Of a stretch of 50,353 bases of DNA, positions 20,649 through 31,011 are shown in pieces. The stretch comes from an uncultured Pseudomonadota bacterium. Lineage in GTDB: Bacteria > Myxococcota_A > UBA796 > GCA-2862545. The notes beneath the pieces were generated by a model. It ran no database searches. It was not told where the DNA came from and saw only the letters and a program-made list of their open reading frames with translations. Positions within the stretch are counted from its first letter, which is position 1. Each line of letters opens with the position of its first letter. Where the stretch lies: contig CAIOSP010000186.1 of the NCBI GenBank assembly GCA_903861005.1, forward strand, positions 1 through 50,353, in the 5' to 3' direction. Both the position numbers and the translations under genes were made by a program.

Positions 20649-21437
20649 ATGTCTGAGGACGGAGCGAGCGGGCCCTGGCGGCGGGCGATGTTCAACGGCC
20701 AGAAGGTCTGGGTGGCGGTGGACGGCGACGGCAAGCCCGCCGCGAGCGGGGGCCGTGTACCCATGCGCTACTCGGACGCCGCCGGGACCAAGATCTACAG
20801 CGCGGGTGCGTCCCGCGTGGAGCGGGTCGACGGGCCGGTGAGCATGCTCGCCGCGGGCACAGCGGCCGAAGCCCCCAAGGCCGCGGGCGCCTCGTCGGCG
20901 CCGAAGTCGGGTCGCGGGTCGGGCTTTGGCAGCGCCGGCACGCGCACCGCGGCCCAGGCTGTCGCCGCCGCGACCGAGGCACGACGCCTGCTGACCACCC
21001 TCCCCGAGGGCACCCATGTCGCCTACACCGACGGCTCCTGCCGAGGGAACCCAGGTCCCGCGGGCGCGGGCGTGTCGCTGCGCCTGGCGGACGGTCGCCG
21101 CGCGGATGCGTCGCGCTCGCTCGGGACGGGGACCAACAACATCGGGGAGCTGACCGCGATCGGCATCGCGCTGGAGCTGCTCGACGAGGCCGGCGTGCCG
21201 TCGGACGCCCGCGTCGCCATCCTGTCCGACTCCTCCTACGCCAACGGCGTGCTCTGCCAGGGCTGGAAGGCCAAGGCGAACGTCGAGCTGATCACCGGCC
21301 TGCGCGCCGCGCTGAAGCGCCGCCCCGGCGCGGTCGTCCACTGGGTCGCGGGCCACACGGGGCTGGAGGGCAACGAGGCCGCCGACACGCTGGCGAACGC
21401 GGGCGTGGCCGGCAAGACCACGGTGAAGTGGAGCTGA
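20649..21437 (+). CDS. rnhA: Ribonuclease HI with an extra N-terminal domain
   Basis: A 262 aa enzyme that degrades RNA in RNA-DNA hybrids. The C-terminal 145 residues carry the full active site: D128 in AYTDGSCRGNPGPAG, E167 in NNIGELTA, D194 in LSDSSYAN, H236 in AGHTGLEG and D246 in GNEAADTLA. The N-terminal 60 residues (MFNGQKVWVAVDGDG region) form an unrecognised, probably beta-rich module. An Ala/Ser/Lys-rich linker (about 66-100) joins the two. It does not look like the usual hybrid-binding domain of other RNase HI proteins. The ATG is preceded by GGAGGAGCGGG. Its TGA stop directly abuts the stop of RNase HII on the other strand. Confidence 0.93.
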   Translation: MSEDGASGPWRRAMFNGQKVWVAVDGDGKPAASGGRVPMRYSDAAGTKIYSAGASRVERVDGPVSMLAAGTAAEAPKAAGASSAPKSGRGSGFGSAGTRTAAQAVAAATEARRLLTTLPEGTHVAYTDGSCRGNPGPAGAGVSLRLADGRRADASRSLGTGTNNIGELTAIGIALELLDEAGVPSDARVAILSDSSYANGVLCQGWKAKANVELITGLRAALKRRPGAVVHWVAGHTGLEGNEAADTLANAGVAGKTTVKWS

Positions 21438-22079
21438 TCAGGCGGACGTGCTGCGCGCCAACGCCTCGATGTCCGGGATCGTGCTCCACTTGGTCCGGAC
21501 GAACGGCGGCCACGGCGCGCCGGTGCGCGCGTGGGCGAGCAGCCAGCTGCGGGTAACCTCGTCGCCCGGGTAGCCGGAGCCCAGCGTCCCCCAGGTGATC
21601 TTGAGCTCCTCCAGCGCCGCGTCGCGGGTGGTCTTGGCGATGATCGAGGCGGCGCCGCAGACCGGGAAGTCCAAGTCGGCCTTGGGCGCGATCGTCCAGA
21701 TAGGGCGCAGGCCGTCCGGCTCCAGCGCGCGCTGGAAGCGGGCGATGAGGGCAGGCAGGGTGCGGGGCGGACCGAGCGCGTCCATGACGACGTGATCCGG
21801 GCGCCAGCGGCGGACCAGGTCCAGGACCACATCCTCCTCCAGGGCGTTGAGGCTGTGCGCGTCCAGCATCACGGGCTCGACGCAACGCGCGTCGCCGGTG
21901 CCCAGCGCCTCCAGCTTGGCGCGGATCGCGACGCGACGCTTGGCGGACAGCTTCTTGCTGTCGGTCGCGCCGACCTCGGCCAGGACGTGATCGTCGTCGG
22001 CGTCGAGCACAAAACCAGCCACCACCATGGCACCCAGGACACAGCCGCGGCCTGCCTCGTCGATTCCCAGCCAGCGCAT
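21438..22079 (-). CDS. rnhB: Ribonuclease HII
   Basis: A 213 aa type 2 RNase H that nicks 5' of ribonucleotides embedded in DNA. The signature GIDEAGRGCVLG supplies D7 and E8. DSKKLS (residues 40-45) follows, then D100 in VVMDALGPP and D135 in the KADLDFPVCGAASIIAK block. GSGYPGDEVT near the C-terminus is the conserved GYP motif of the family. All catalytic acids appear present. It faces RNase HI with no base between the two stops (TGATCA at 21435-21440). Confidence 0.93.
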   Translation of the reverse strand: MRWLGIDEAGRGCVLGAMVVAGFVLDADDDHVLAEVGATDSKKLSAKRRVAIRAKLEALGTGDARCVEPVMLDAHSLNALEEDVVLDLVRRWRPDHVVMDALGPPRTLPALIARFQRALEPDGLRPIWTIAPKADLDFPVCGAASIIAKTTRDAALEELKITWGTLGSGYPGDEVTRSWLLAHARTGAPWPPFVRTKWSTIPDIEALARSTSA

Positions 22080-24955: not shown

Positions 24956-26869
24956 ATGCGGCTGTGGAGCCTGGCGGGGTTGCTGTGTGCGTGCGCGGGT
25001 TCGGGCGCCGACACGGGGGTGACGGACGACACCGACCGTTCGACGGAGGTGTTCCCACGGTGTGCGGAATACGACGATCTCCGGCGCCCCTACTTCGGAG
25101 ATATGCACGTCCACACGGCGCTCTCGCTGGACGCCAACACCCAGGGCACGCGCCTGCGGCCAAGCGACGCCTACCGGTTCGCCCGGGGCGAGGCGGTGGG
25201 GATCCAGCCCTACACCAGCGCCGACGTGGCGCTGCGCACCGTGCAGCTGGAGCGACCGCTCGACTTCACCGCCGTCACCGACCACGCCGAGTTCCTGGGC
25301 ACGGTCGCCCTGTGCACCACGCCCGGCTCGCCCGCCTACGACGAGGCCGCGTGTGTGCAGCTGCGCCAAGACCCCCAGGCCGCCTACATCGGGCTCAACG
25401 CGGCGACCGCGGCCGAGCAGGGACGCGCGGCCTACCCCGAGCTGTGCGGAGACGGCGGCGCGGACTGCCTCGCCGCCGGGATGGACGTGTGGGGCGAGGT
25501 CCGCGACGCCGCCGAGGCGGCCTACGACCGCACCGACGCCTGCGGGTTCACCAGCTTCGTCGGCTACGAGTGGTCCGGCGGGCCCGGCACCAAAAACCTG
25601 CATCGCAACGTGATCTTCCGCACTGAGGTCGTGCCCGACACGCCCACCTCCTACTTTGACGAGAGCTACCCCGAGGGGCTGTGGGACCGGCTGGACGCGG
25701 GCTGCCTGGATCAGGCCACCTGCGACGTGATCACCATCCCGCACAACGCGAACCTGTCGAGCGGGCTGATGTTCCGCGACGTCAACGACACCACCTACCC
25801 GGCGCCCGACGCCGCCAGCGCCCGTCGTCGCGCCCGCATGGAGCCGCTGGTCGAGATCTTCCAGCACAAGGGAGACGGCGAGTGCTGGCCCGGATCGTCC
25901 TCCGCCGACGAGCTCTGCGGGTTTGAGAAGGTGCCGTACAACACGCTCGCCGGGGCCAACCTGGACCTGCGCGCCGACCCGACCCCGCTCGACTTTGTGC
26001 GCGACGTGCTCGGCGAGGGCTTGCGCTGGCAGTCCAAGTTCGGCGTCGACCCGTACCGTTACGGGATCATCGCCAGCACCGACACCCACCTGGGCACCCC
26101 GGGCCTGACGTCGGAGTCTGGCTTCCCCGGCCACGGCGGCGCGGGCCCCGGCGCGCGCGACGTCCTGCCGGCAGGCCTGACCGACAACCCCTTCTTCAAC
26201 CCCGGCGGCCTGGCCGTGCTGTGGTCGGAGGAGAACAGCCGCGAGGGCCTGTTCCGCGCCATGCGCCGCAAGGAGGCCTACGGCACGAGCGGGCCGCGCC
26301 TGGTGCTCCGCGCGTTTGCCGGCTGGGGCTACGACGCCGCGATGTGCGACGCGTCGGACTTTGCCCGCCAGGGCTACGACGGCGGCGTGCCGATGGGCAC
26401 CGATCTGCCGGCGGCGCCAGACGGGGCGACCGCGCCGACCTTCGCGATCTCCGCGCTGGCCGACGCGGGCACGGCCGCCCACCCGGGCGCGCCGCTGCAG
26501 CGCCTTCAGGTCGTGAAGGGCTGGCTCGACGGCGACACGCCGCGCTTCAAGGTGTTCGACGTCGGCGGCGATCCGACCGCCGGGGCCGACCTGGACACGG
26601 CGACCTGCGCGGTCGACGGGGTGGGGGAGACCTCGCTGTGCTCCGTGTGGACCGACCCCGAGTTCGACCCGACCGCGCCTGCCTTCTGGTACGTGCGCGC
26701 CGTCGAGGTGCCGACCTGCCGATGGACGCAGCTGCAGTGCAACGCGGCGAACATCACCTGCCCCACGGAGGACTCGTCCTACGCCGCCTGCTGCGACGCC
26801 GACGTCCCCAAGGTCACGCAGGAGCGCGCGTGGAGCAGCCCGTTCTGGTTCCTCCCGTCGGGCGGGTGA
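24956..26869 (+). CDS. DUF3604 (PHP-like) secreted lipoprotein
   Basis: A 637 aa protein with a lipoprotein signal (lipobox LCAC, about C14). The core matches DUF3604, a PHP-superfamily-like metal-dependent hydrolase family of unknown substrate. FGDMHVHTALSLD (about 48-60) gives the HxH metal motif. FTAVTDHAEFLG gives the DHxE motif, and IIASTDTHLGTPG (about 364-376) gives the late DxH motif. Cysteine pairs are spread through the protein, as expected for an exported enzyme. It starts an operon with a prolyl isomerase and a HupE/UreJ_2-type protein. From memory, those families are frequent neighbours of DUF3604 genes. Confidence 0.88.
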   Translation: MRLWSLAGLLCACAGSGADTGVTDDTDRSTEVFPRCAEYDDLRRPYFGDMHVHTALSLDANTQGTRLRPSDAYRFARGEAVGIQPYTSADVALRTVQLERPLDFTAVTDHAEFLGTVALCTTPGSPAYDEAACVQLRQDPQAAYIGLNAATAAEQGRAAYPELCGDGGADCLAAGMDVWGEVRDAAEAAYDRTDACGFTSFVGYEWSGGPGTKNLHRNVIFRTEVVPDTPTSYFDESYPEGLWDRLDAGCLDQATCDVITIPHNANLSSGLMFRDVNDTTYPAPDAASARRRARMEPLVEIFQHKGDGECWPGSSSADELCGFEKVPYNTLAGANLDLRADPTPLDFVRDVLGEGLRWQSKFGVDPYRYGIIASTDTHLGTPGLTSESGFPGHGGAGPGARDVLPAGLTDNPFFNPGGLAVLWSEENSREGLFRAMRRKEAYGTSGPRLVLRAFAGWGYDAAMCDASDFARQGYDGGVPMGTDLPAAPDGATAPTFAISALADAGTAAHPGAPLQRLQVVKGWLDGDTPRFKVFDVGGDPTAGADLDTATCAVDGVGETSLCSVWTDPEFDPTAPAFWYVRAVEVPTCRWTQLQCNAANITCPTEDSSYAACCDADVPKVTQERAWSSPFWFLPSGG

Positions 26870-26872
26870 GTC

Positions 26873-27736
26873 ATGTGGGCGCGCGTGAAGATCCTTGGGC
26901 GGATGGTGGCGGTCGCGGCGGTGGTCTCGTGGGTGCTCACCCGCTGGCCCTCCTCTGAGGACCGCGCGCACGCCCCGCTGAAGGTGTCGGTGCCGGTCGG
27001 CGCGTCGGCGGCGGCGTGGGATCAGGCGATCGAGCGCACCGTGCTGCTGGCCGAGGCGCGCCACCGCGGGTGGGTCGACGCGGACCCGGTGATCGGCCGA
27101 CGGCTGGTCGCGAACCTGCGCTTCCTCGGGCGGACGGGCGCCGAGGCCGCGCTGCTCGACGAGGCCAAGGGGCTGGGCATGGATCTGACCGACGTGGTCG
27201 TCACCAGCCGCCTGCTCGACCGCATGGAGCGCTGGCTGACCACGCCGCCCGCGGCCCCGGATGACGCGGCCCTGCAGGCCACGCTCGACGCGCACGCCGC
27301 GGCGTTCCGCGCGCCGGATCGGGTGCACCTGCAGTCGGTGTTCCTGTCGAACCATCGCGACGACGCGCTGGAATCGGACGCGGCGCGTCTGAAGGCGAGC
27401 CTGGTCGCGGGTGGCACGGAGCCCGGGGACGCGCTGCTCGATCTGAAGCCCGAGGAGGACACGACGCCCGCGCGCCTGTCCGCTCGCTACGGCGACGCGG
27501 TCGGGGACGCGGTGCGCGACGCGCCGATCGGGGCGTGGGTGGGGCCGGTCCGCTCACCGTTCGGGCTGCACCTGATGCGGGTGACGACGCGCACGCCGGG
27601 CGCGCTCCCGCCGCTGTCGACGGTGCGCCCGGCGGTGGAGGCGGCGTGGGCGCGGGATCACGCGCCCGCGTGGCGCGCCGAGCGGGTGGCCCTGCTCCGG
27701 GCGCGCTGGCCGGTCGTGGTCGAGGGGGCGCCATGA
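26873..27736 (+). CDS. Parvulin-type peptidyl-prolyl cis-trans isomerase, membrane-anchored
   Basis: A 287 aa protein with an N-terminal membrane anchor (about 8-23), a SurA/PrsA-like helical region and a PpiC-type rotamase domain. The domain starts near VHLQSVFLSNHRD (about 143-155) and ends at GAWVGPVRSPFGLHLMRVTTR. The final segment (LPPLSTVRPAVEAAWARDH) is the usual C-terminal helix. It probably folds exported proteins. It lies 3 bp after the DUF3604 gene and overlaps the next gene by 4 bp (ATGA), so it may serve the DUF3604 lipoprotein specifically. Confidence 0.85.
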   Translation: MWARVKILGRMVAVAAVVSWVLTRWPSSEDRAHAPLKVSVPVGASAAAWDQAIERTVLLAEARHRGWVDADPVIGRRLVANLRFLGRTGAEAALLDEAKGLGMDLTDVVVTSRLLDRMERWLTTPPAAPDDAALQATLDAHAAAFRAPDRVHLQSVFLSNHRDDALESDAARLKASLVAGGTEPGDALLDLKPEEDTTPARLSARYGDAVGDAVRDAPIGAWVGPVRSPFGLHLMRVTTRTPGALPPLSTVRPAVEAAWARDHAPAWRAERVALLRARWPVVVEGAP

Positions 27737-28311
27737 TCGCGCTGACCCTCTGGACGGCGCTGGCGTCAGCCCACGCGCTGGCGCCCGCCGGGCTGGACCT
27801 GACGCTGATCGACCCGACGCACGCCTCGGTCGACTGGCGCACCCCCGTGCGCGAGCCGACGGGTGAGTCGCTTCGCCCCGTGTGGCCGGAAGGCTGCACG
27901 CTGGCCGCCGGTGACCCCAAGCCAGACGAGGCGGGGGCGCTGGTGGTGCGCGGGACCCTGTCCTGCGCGGCCCCGCTGTTCGGTCAGGAGATCGGCGTGG
28001 ACGGGCTGGTCGGTGCGACCATGGACGTGGTGATCACCGTCCGAGGAGAAGGTGGCCGCGTGCGTCGCGCGCTGCTCCACGACCCCGTGTCGCGCTGGAC
28101 CGTGGCCGCGCCGGAGGAGGCGCCGACCGCGTCGTGGACCTCGACGGCGCCCGCTTGGCTGGGCAGGGCGCTGCGTGGCCTCGCGGCGATCCTGGTGGTC
28201 GGCGCCTGCGTGGAAGGGGTGCATCGCGGGCGGGAGGCGCGCGTGATCTGGGCTCAGGCGCTGGGCTGGACCGTGGGCGTCGCGGCGCTGGTCGCGTGGT
28301 GGTGCGCCTGA
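27733..28311 (+). CDS. Shortened HupE/UreJ_2-type protein
   Basis: A 192 aa protein with a signal peptide (to about HA, residue 14). Its N-terminal extracytoplasmic domain, PAGLDLTLIDPTHASVDW through VDGLVGATMDVVITV, matches the front half of HupE/UreJ_2 proteins. In typical members a domain of six or seven membrane helices with conserved histidines follows. Here only two hydrophobic segments remain (about 144-158 and 172-190) and no HxxxD metal motif is visible. It therefore looks internally deleted or reduced. The stop lies within the first copy of a 42-bp tandem duplication. It is the third gene of the DUF3604-isomerase operon, with an ATGA overlap at its start. Confidence 0.7.
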   Translation: MIALTLWTALASAHALAPAGLDLTLIDPTHASVDWRTPVREPTGESLRPVWPEGCTLAAGDPKPDEAGALVVRGTLSCAAPLFGQEIGVDGLVGATMDVVITVRGEGGRVRRALLHDPVSRWTVAAPEEAPTASWTSTAPAWLGRALRGLAAILVVGACVEGVHRGREARVIWAQALGWTVGVAALVAWWCA

Positions 28312-28374
28312 GGGGTGGACGCCGAGGCGCGGGTCGCGTGGTGGTGTGCCTGAGGGGTGGACGCCGAGGCGCTG
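28291..28374 (+). repeat. 42-bp tandem duplication across a stop codon
   Basis: Two adjacent 42-base copies (28291-28332 and 28333-28374) are nearly identical. Each contains the last codons and TGA stop of the HupE/UreJ_2-type gene. Because 42 is a multiple of three, the second copy repeats the terminal VAWWCA-stop in the same frame. Confidence 0.9.
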
Positions 28375-28996: not shown

Positions 28997-29106
28997 GTCG
29001 GGCCACAATCCGCGCGGTTGCGGTGTGCCACGCGGGAGCGGGCGGGCTACGGGCGCCGAGCGTTGGAGTCCAGGGGGGCTCGCGCCAAATCGCCCTTGGA
29101 GCACTC

Positions 29107-31011
29107 TTGTCCGAGATCCCTCCCACGCCCTTGACCCTCGCGCTGCCCGATCTCACCAAGGTCGCGCCGGAAGACCGGGACCGCGTCTGGTTCGAGACCT
29201 ACTACCAGGGCGACAAGGTCCCCCAGCTGACGTTCCGCGCCGTCATGATGGGCGGCCTGCTCGGCATGATGATGTCGGTGTCCAACCTGTACACCACGCT
29301 CAAGCTGGGCTGGGCGTTCGGCGTCGCGATCACCGCATGTGTCATGTCCTTCGCGATCTGGGACGGCATGGTGGCGCTCGGTCTGGCCAAGTCGCGCATG
29401 TCGATCCTCGAGAACAACTGCATGCAGTCGACCGCGTCGGCCGCGGGCTACTCGACCGGCGGCACCATCGCGACCGCCGCGGGCGCGCTGCTGCTGATCA
29501 ACGGCGACGCGGAGCGCATGGGCTGGCTCCCGCTCGGCGTGTGGGTCTTCTTCGTCGCCATCCTCGGCGTGTTCCTGGCCATCCCCATGAAGCGCCAGAT
29601 GATCAACAGCGAGCAGCTCGCGTTCCCGTCGGGCATCGCCGCGGCTGAGACGCTGCGCAGCCTGTACGCGGAGGGTGCGGCCAGCGTGAAGAAGGCGCGT
29701 GACCTGATCGACGCGCTCATCGCGGGCGCGGTCATCGGCGGCGCGCGCAGCTTTGGCATCATCCCCGAGGCCATCAACTTCGGCGGCTCGCTCGCGACCA
29801 CGCGCGGCCCCATCGGCCTGGGCGCCATGGGCATGTCGTTTGAGCCCAGCCTGCTGCTCATCGCCGCGGGCGCCATCACCGGCATGCGCGTGTGCGCGTC
29901 CATGATGCTCGGCGCGATCGTGAACTGGTTCGTGATCGCCCCCTACGTGATCAGCCTGCCGGACTGGGTCGCCCAAGACAAGACGTTTGTCGGCCACTTC
30001 GAGGCGGTGCTCGGCGACGGCGGCGCGATCGAGGCGATCAAGGTGGGCCGGTGGAGCCTGTGGCTGGGCACGGCGCTTCTGGTGTCGTCTGGCCTGACGG
30101 CGTTCGCGCTCAACTGGCGCACCATCGTCCGCGCGTTCACCGGCGCCCGCAGCGGCGCGGTGTCGGCGCACGACTCCAAGATGGCGGAGATCGAGGTCCC
30201 CGCGTCCTGGATGGTCATGGGCATGATCCCCACCACCCTCGGCATCTGCGCGGTCTGCTACCTGGCGATGGGCATCAGCCCTTGGCTCGGCGTCCTGTCG
30301 GTCGTGCTCTCCGGCGTGCTCTCGCTCGTCGCCTGCCGCGCCACCGGCGAGACGGACACCACGCCGATCGGCGCCATGGGCAAGGTCACGCAGTTCATCT
30401 TCGCGGTGGTCGCTCCCGCCGACAAGACCGTGAACCTGATGACCGCGGGCGTCACCGCCGGCGCGGCCAGCTCCAGCGCCGACCTGCTGACCGACCTCAA
30501 GTCCGGCTACCTGCTCGGCGCCAACCCGCGTCAGCAGTTCCTGGCCCAGCTCTACGGCGTGTTCTTCGGCGTCGTGGCGATCATCCCGGCCTGGTACCTG
30601 ATGGTGCCGAACAAGGCCGCGCTCGAGAAGTTCAACCCGCCCGCGACCAACATGTGGCGCGCGGTGGCCGACGCGCTGTCCGGCGGCATCGAGACCATCC
30701 CGCTGTCGGCCCGATACGCCATCGTCATCGGCGCGCTGATCGGCATCGCGCTCCCGCTGGCCGAGTCGATGTTCCCGAAGGCGCGTCGCTTCCTGCCGTC
30801 GAGCATGGGTCTGGGCCTCGCGTTCGTCATCTCGTTCTCCAACTCGCTCGGCTTCTTCATCGGCGCGGCCATCGCGCAGCGCTGGGTGGGCCGGGACGAG
30901 AAGGCCTACGAGGACAAGATCATCCCGCTCGCGTCGGGCGCCATCGCCGGTGAGTCGCTGGTGTCGGCGGGCTACGCGATGCTGAACTCGCTGCACATCC
31001 TCGCCGCCTGA
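29107..31011 (+). CDS. OPT-family oligopeptide/metal-complex transporter
   Basis: A 634 aa polytopic membrane protein with about 14 helices. Conserved blocks of the oligopeptide transporter (OPT) superfamily are visible. They include LTFRAVMMGGLLGMMMSVSN near the start, NNCMQSTASAAGYSTGG (about 101-117), QLAFPSG (about 170-176) and TAGVTAGAASSSADLLTDLK near 450. Members import peptides or iron-siderophore-like complexes; the substrate is unknown here. The start is a TTG at 29107 with TTGGAG upstream. Earlier in-frame sequence overlaps the preceding gene and is not credible. Confidence 0.9.
   Translation: MSEIPPTPLTLALPDLTKVAPEDRDRVWFETYYQGDKVPQLTFRAVMMGGLLGMMMSVSNLYTTLKLGWAFGVAITACVMSFAIWDGMVALGLAKSRMSILENNCMQSTASAAGYSTGGTIATAAGALLLINGDAERMGWLPLGVWVFFVAILGVFLAIPMKRQMINSEQLAFPSGIAAAETLRSLYAEGAASVKKARDLIDALIAGAVIGGARSFGIIPEAINFGGSLATTRGPIGLGAMGMSFEPSLLLIAAGAITGMRVCASMMLGAIVNWFVIAPYVISLPDWVAQDKTFVGHFEAVLGDGGAIEAIKVGRWSLWLGTALLVSSGLTAFALNWRTIVRAFTGARSGAVSAHDSKMAEIEVPASWMVMGMIPTTLGICAVCYLAMGISPWLGVLSVVLSGVLSLVACRATGETDTTPIGAMGKVTQFIFAVVAPADKTVNLMTAGVTAGAASSSADLLTDLKSGYLLGANPRQQFLAQLYGVFFGVVAIIPAWYLMVPNKAALEKFNPPATNMWRAVADALSGGIETIPLSARYAIVIGALIGIALPLAESMFPKARRFLPSSMGLGLAFVISFSNSLGFFIGAAIAQRWVGRDEKAYEDKIIPLASGAIAGESLVSAGYAMLNSLHILAA

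Follow-up and report, generated by a model that had tools for sequence, protein, structure and literature searches.

A coupled three-gene cluster

Do three closely packed genes, encoding a DUF3604 protein, a parvulin-type isomerase and a relative of the HupE/UreJ_2 permeases, make up a conserved envelope system, and what would each of them contribute to it? The question arises from a locus in an uncultured Pseudomonadota bacterium (assembly GCA_903861005.1, contig CAIOSP010000186.1; GTDB lineage Myxococcota_A), where we analysed a stretch of 50,353 nucleotides, hereafter the window. The DUF3604 gene (24956..26869, forward strand, 637 amino acids, Pfam PF12228) is separated by a 3-bp gap (26870..26872, between stop and start) from a gene for a PPIC/parvulin-type isomerase or chaperone (26873..27736, forward strand, 287 amino acids, PF13145), whose stop overlaps the ATG of the third gene in a 4-bp ATGA (27733..27736). 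This third gene, a permease-less HupE/UreJ_2 relative of 192 amino acids, runs on the same strand from the ATG at 27733 to the stop at 28311. In the sequence, both junctions are exactly as claimed in a preliminary description of the locus. A 42-bp tandem repeat of 2.4 copies (28273..28372, forward strand) covers the 3′ end of the third gene and its stop; its unit is single and unduplicated in the sibling genome. Promoter and terminator scans of the locus found nothing, a result that carries no information for this GC-rich genome.

The genes flanking the triad are common only to the window and the sibling genome, which marks the triad itself as the conserved unit. About 0.75 kb downstream lies an OPT-family transporter gene (29065-31008; PF03169, E 8.5e-79), whose position beside the triad is conserved only in the sibling genome and was not found outside the genus. 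Upstream in the window, an RNase H gene (20649-21437, +) and an RNase HII gene (21438-22079, −) adjoin convergently.

The DUF3604 protein as a modelled PHP metallohydrolase

The first protein matches PF12228 with 532 bits (cut-off 20.4; E 1.9e-159) over profile positions 4-591 of 591, confirming its assignment to DUF3604. A PHP-type metallohydrolase domain is followed by a C-terminal beta-sandwich, and an N-terminal signal, read by eye, marks the protein for export, probably as a lipoprotein with its junction between LCA and C. The AF2 model (pLDDT 90) resembles PHP-superfamily structures, with VIA Z-scores of 17.8 for 3e38 and 17.3 for TM0559 (2anu) over 205-234 aligned residues. Nine residues, H51, H53, D59, H110, E205, H216, H263, D376 and H378, are invariant in an alignment of 64 sequences and fit the PHP motifs HxH, DH, E, H, H and DxH, the ligands being assigned by motif rather than by superposition. 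On this model the protein is a PHP-superfamily metallohydrolase whose conserved metal site is complete; the fold and the full metal-ligand set are those of known PHP metallohydrolases, from which it differs in its own long insertions and in the C-terminal beta-sandwich. The CehA/McbA carbamate hydrolases are functional analogues, and the corresponding model, NF038032, scores 15.9 bits, below its cut-off of 80. Searching the PDB by sequence gave no usable match for this protein.

Within the phylum sample, genomes such as G215, G220, G186 and G247 each hold ~45-49 first-look DUF3604 candidates, not all of them scored. These numbers suggest large expansions of DUF3604 paralogues in some families of the phylum.

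The parvulin-type protein

The second protein belongs to a prolyl isomerase family, as proposed, with a match to the PPIC-type Rotamase_2 profile PF13145 of 53.6 bits (cut-off 27; E 4.9e-14), and an N-terminal membrane anchor is predicted by eye. In the family alignment, the C-terminal parvulin G-x-H is retained (H233, conserved in 58 of 59), and the position of the N-terminal parvulin histidine is taken by Ser155; relatives have His there in 33 of 58 cases and Gln in 24 of 58. Variation between His and Gln at this site would point to chaperoning more than to catalysis. The earlier picture of an enzyme with its own foldase is plausible, but with one parvulin histidine replaced by serine, isomerase activity is only putative.

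A HupE/UreJ_2 relative without its permease

The third gene matches nothing in Pfam or NCBIfam, PF13795 included. The HupE/UreJ_2 label it had been given fails for the window protein because the permease domain is absent; its homology to HupE/UreJ_2 proteins is confined to their N-terminal ectodomain. Full-length relatives at neighbouring loci measure ~335 amino acids and combine a periplasmic ectodomain of ~150 amino acids with a HupE/UreJ_2 permease, PF13795 spanning residues ~150-304. The window protein has a signal peptide, a predicted mature N-terminal His14 and a beta-sandwich ectodomain at ~14-125, after which the AF2 model predicts a helical hairpin (135-163 and 167-191). Aligned with 64 relatives, it keeps the ectodomain consensus residues A13, H14, P18, L21, V33, W35, P38, P52, L82, G84, G91, L92, D98 and G108. 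The permease motifs H-x5-DH, FT-x2-HS, GLLHG-x-GFA and GVE-x-GQ are absent, and the residues lost with them, all invariant among 64 aligned homologues, include G156, H159, D165, H166, F190, T191, H194, G251, H254, G255, E284 and Q287 (L106 numbering). By these alignments, the third gene is a HupE/UreJ_2 relative with its ectodomain kept and its permease core deleted.

The sibling genome (G001) carries the same permease-less form, identical in length and frame. Between the two genomes, dN/dS for the third gene is 0.124 overall (Fisher p 3e-12), 0.111 in the ectodomain and 0.162 in the helices; the values for the DUF3604 and isomerase genes are 0.10 and 0.27. A ratio of 0.12 against the sibling shows that the third gene is no pseudogene: it encodes a functional, shortened protein under purifying selection. 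Assembly error as the cause of the short gene is rejected by the same frame and length in the sibling MAG.

The same-family genome G002 has the triad with a full-length permease. On the DUF3604 tree its protein is one of those closest to the window's, and the simplest account is therefore a deletion that arose within the window's genus. In a sample of 229 genomes from the phylum, the ectodomain is present in 75, and unambiguous short forms at a distance from contig ends occur only in the two genomes of the window's genus; one weak, stop-containing match in G102 was set aside from this count. Short copies in G180, G162, G084 and G206 were rejected as further permease-less forms, lying as they do at contig ends. 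Displacement of the permease to another place in the genome was rejected too, the sole other PF13795 match carrying a different ectodomain, and the window genome holds no orphan permease of the third-gene type. That other copy (L129, on contig C11) is a full-length HupE/UreJ_2 protein with its own signal-peptide junction, between ALA and H, and has neither isomerase nor DUF3604 nearby.

Recurrence of the triad

All three genes stand together at 34 of 80 named loci sampled around DUF3604, and DUF3604 is accompanied by the isomerase alone at three more, so the objection that there is no co-occurrence elsewhere fails across several phyla. Triads come from Alpha-, Beta- and Gammaproteobacteria, Myxococcales, Acidobacteriota and Bacteroidota records, and are complete at 7 of the 16 DUF3604 loci within the window's phylum. 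Two gene orders are found, DUF3604-isomerase-HupE and isomerase-HupE-DUF3604. The isomerase gene directly adjoins the HupE gene in 53 of 59 cases, a −4/−1 overlapping start being possible in 41 of the 53; in R. leguminosarum a hypothetical gene sits between DUF3604 and isomerase. Sinorhizobium meliloti replicons have annotated DUF3604, peptidylprolyl isomerase and HupE/UreJ genes in the same order as the window with 4-bp overlaps, differing in a full-length HupE/UreJ; this operon is functionally uncharacterised in the literature searched. A phytochelatin synthase gene lies ~2.7 kb downstream of one such triad (L190, S. meliloti p_1).

A second sample was anchored on HupE and covered 60 places, namely the other copy in the window genome and 59 from the upper part of a longer list. 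An isomerase stands beside 18 of 26 HupE genes with the window-type ectodomain and 0 of 34 with other ectodomains (Fisher p 1.7e-9), where the classes are not blind, the classifying profile having been built from the DUF3604-anchored loci, and the split is whether the ectodomain aligns at all. DUF3604 is operonic at 9 of the 26 window-type loci and 0 of the 34 others (p 2e-4). Chance proximity is rejected by the same-strand, near-overlapping layout and by the absence of PPIase from all 34 members of the control class. On a quick DUF3604 tree the association changes ~22 times. Though common, it is no fixed rule: DUF3604 is often found on its own, and isomerase-HupE pairs lacking DUF3604 exist too. 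With two gene orders recurring across phyla, and a modelled PHP fold and metal site, the evidence supports the proposal that the genes form an envelope system that is conserved and so far uncharacterised.

A literature search found no paper linking HupE/UreJ with peptidylprolyl or cis-trans isomerase, and one for DUF3604 returned a Chlamydia transposon-mutant platform unrelated to the present system. The families are each known already; the operon link is absent from the literature searched, and the ectodomain lacking its permease counts as a new form.

The ectodomain as a candidate metal binder

The best folds for the ectodomain model are ZrgA, PA4063 and Ang-1 (PDB 9GCE), at Z 8.3-9.2, with the next match at 7.2. 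Closest are ZrgA of V. cholerae and PA4063 of P. aeruginosa (Z 8.7-9.2), and 9gce reaches Z 8.3 over 107 residues, barely above a noise level that extends to 7-8. ZrgA and PA4063 are periplasmic zinc-trafficking proteins with His-rich loops, whereas the third protein is without such loops and carries a membrane hairpin. Ang-1 binds Cu2+ at 74 nM and Ni2+ at 220 nM, the copper through His1, and has been proposed to supply metal to a permease (PMC12537917). The window protein shares with it a signal peptide, an N-terminal His and a beta-sandwich ectodomain, and its relatives share the same C-terminal permease family. In the fold alignment, model residue 14 is the first to pair, with 9gce residue 1, so that the predicted N-terminal histidine coincides with the copper-binding His1 of Ang-1; cleavage between ASA and H14 was predicted by eye, and His occupies that position in 88% of 64 relatives. 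The window protein departs from Ang-1 in lacking the permease and in its PPIase and DUF3604 neighbours, and no sequence profile links the two: the third-gene family profile had no usable match in the PDB, where 9gce was not found by sequence. The modelled fold suggests an ectodomain related to periplasmic metal binders and tied to the membrane by the predicted hairpin, which would make metal binding by the third protein probable.

A possible envelope hydrolase module

The reading we tentatively prefer, at somewhat less than an even chance, is an envelope hydrolase module in which an exported PHP hydrolase works with a folding helper and an ‘anglerase’-like metal-binding partner, here without import. 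In the periplasm, the ectodomain would use its N-terminal histidine to bind a transition metal of the Cu, Ni or Zn class and hold it for, or hand it to, the DUF3604 enzyme, and the membrane-anchored parvulin-type protein would assist the folding of exported partners. In most relatives the ectodomain may also feed the HupE/UreJ_2 permease; the window's genus would have given up import while retaining the periplasmic component.

Metal scavenging is an unlikely alternative, in which DUF3604 would cleave a periplasmic metal-bearing organic ligand or ester, the ectodomain would catch the metal and HupE would import it, with another importer taking over here. It draws on the fusion of typical ectodomain members to a HupE/UreJ_2 permease with invariant H-x5-DH residues, on the proposed feeding of a permease by Ang-1, and on the one other HupE_UreJ_2 that the genome keeps and the OPT transporter just downstream. 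However, the permease is deleted in the window while the remainder stays under selection, the OPT gene is confined to the genus at this position, and the second HupE comes with an ectodomain of another kind. Doubtful, and ranked lower, is the stronger claim that the ectodomain is a dedicated metallochaperone for DUF3604 and represents a third anglerase class, defined by the isomerase/DUF3604 operon and working without a permease. Ranked lower again, and improbable in our judgement, is a scaffold, in which ectodomain and parvulin-like protein would dock or assemble DUF3604 and other exports, metal binding being incidental and the permease-like bundle mainly an anchor; that a two-helix hairpin can stand in for the whole bundle and that the parvulin histidine varies would fit, but the permease H, D and H are invariant in all other aligned members and the N-terminal His is highly conserved. 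That the operon is in the course of losing a third gene already in decay, as the missing transport core and the 42-bp duplication over that gene's 3′ end might suggest, is highly improbable, being largely refuted by the substitution pattern of the whole gene and by the identical frame and length in the sibling.

Several points weigh against the metal-partner reading itself. A PHP enzyme could acquire its metal unaided, and DUF3604 is often found without an isomerase and a HupE-type gene. The ectodomain Z-scores are modest, with no profile link to 9gce, and one parvulin His is Ser. The neighbours given for Ang-1 in its study are DUF4198, indigoidine-like and PfkB genes; DUF3604 is not among them (PMC12537917).

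DUF3604 is widespread and uncharacterised, and its link to a PHP metal site, a dedicated folding helper and a Cu/Ni/Zn-type binding domain offers a way to approach its metal and substrate by experiment. Having lost the permease naturally, the window's genus would separate periplasmic metal binding from import, the question posed by the newly described anglerases.
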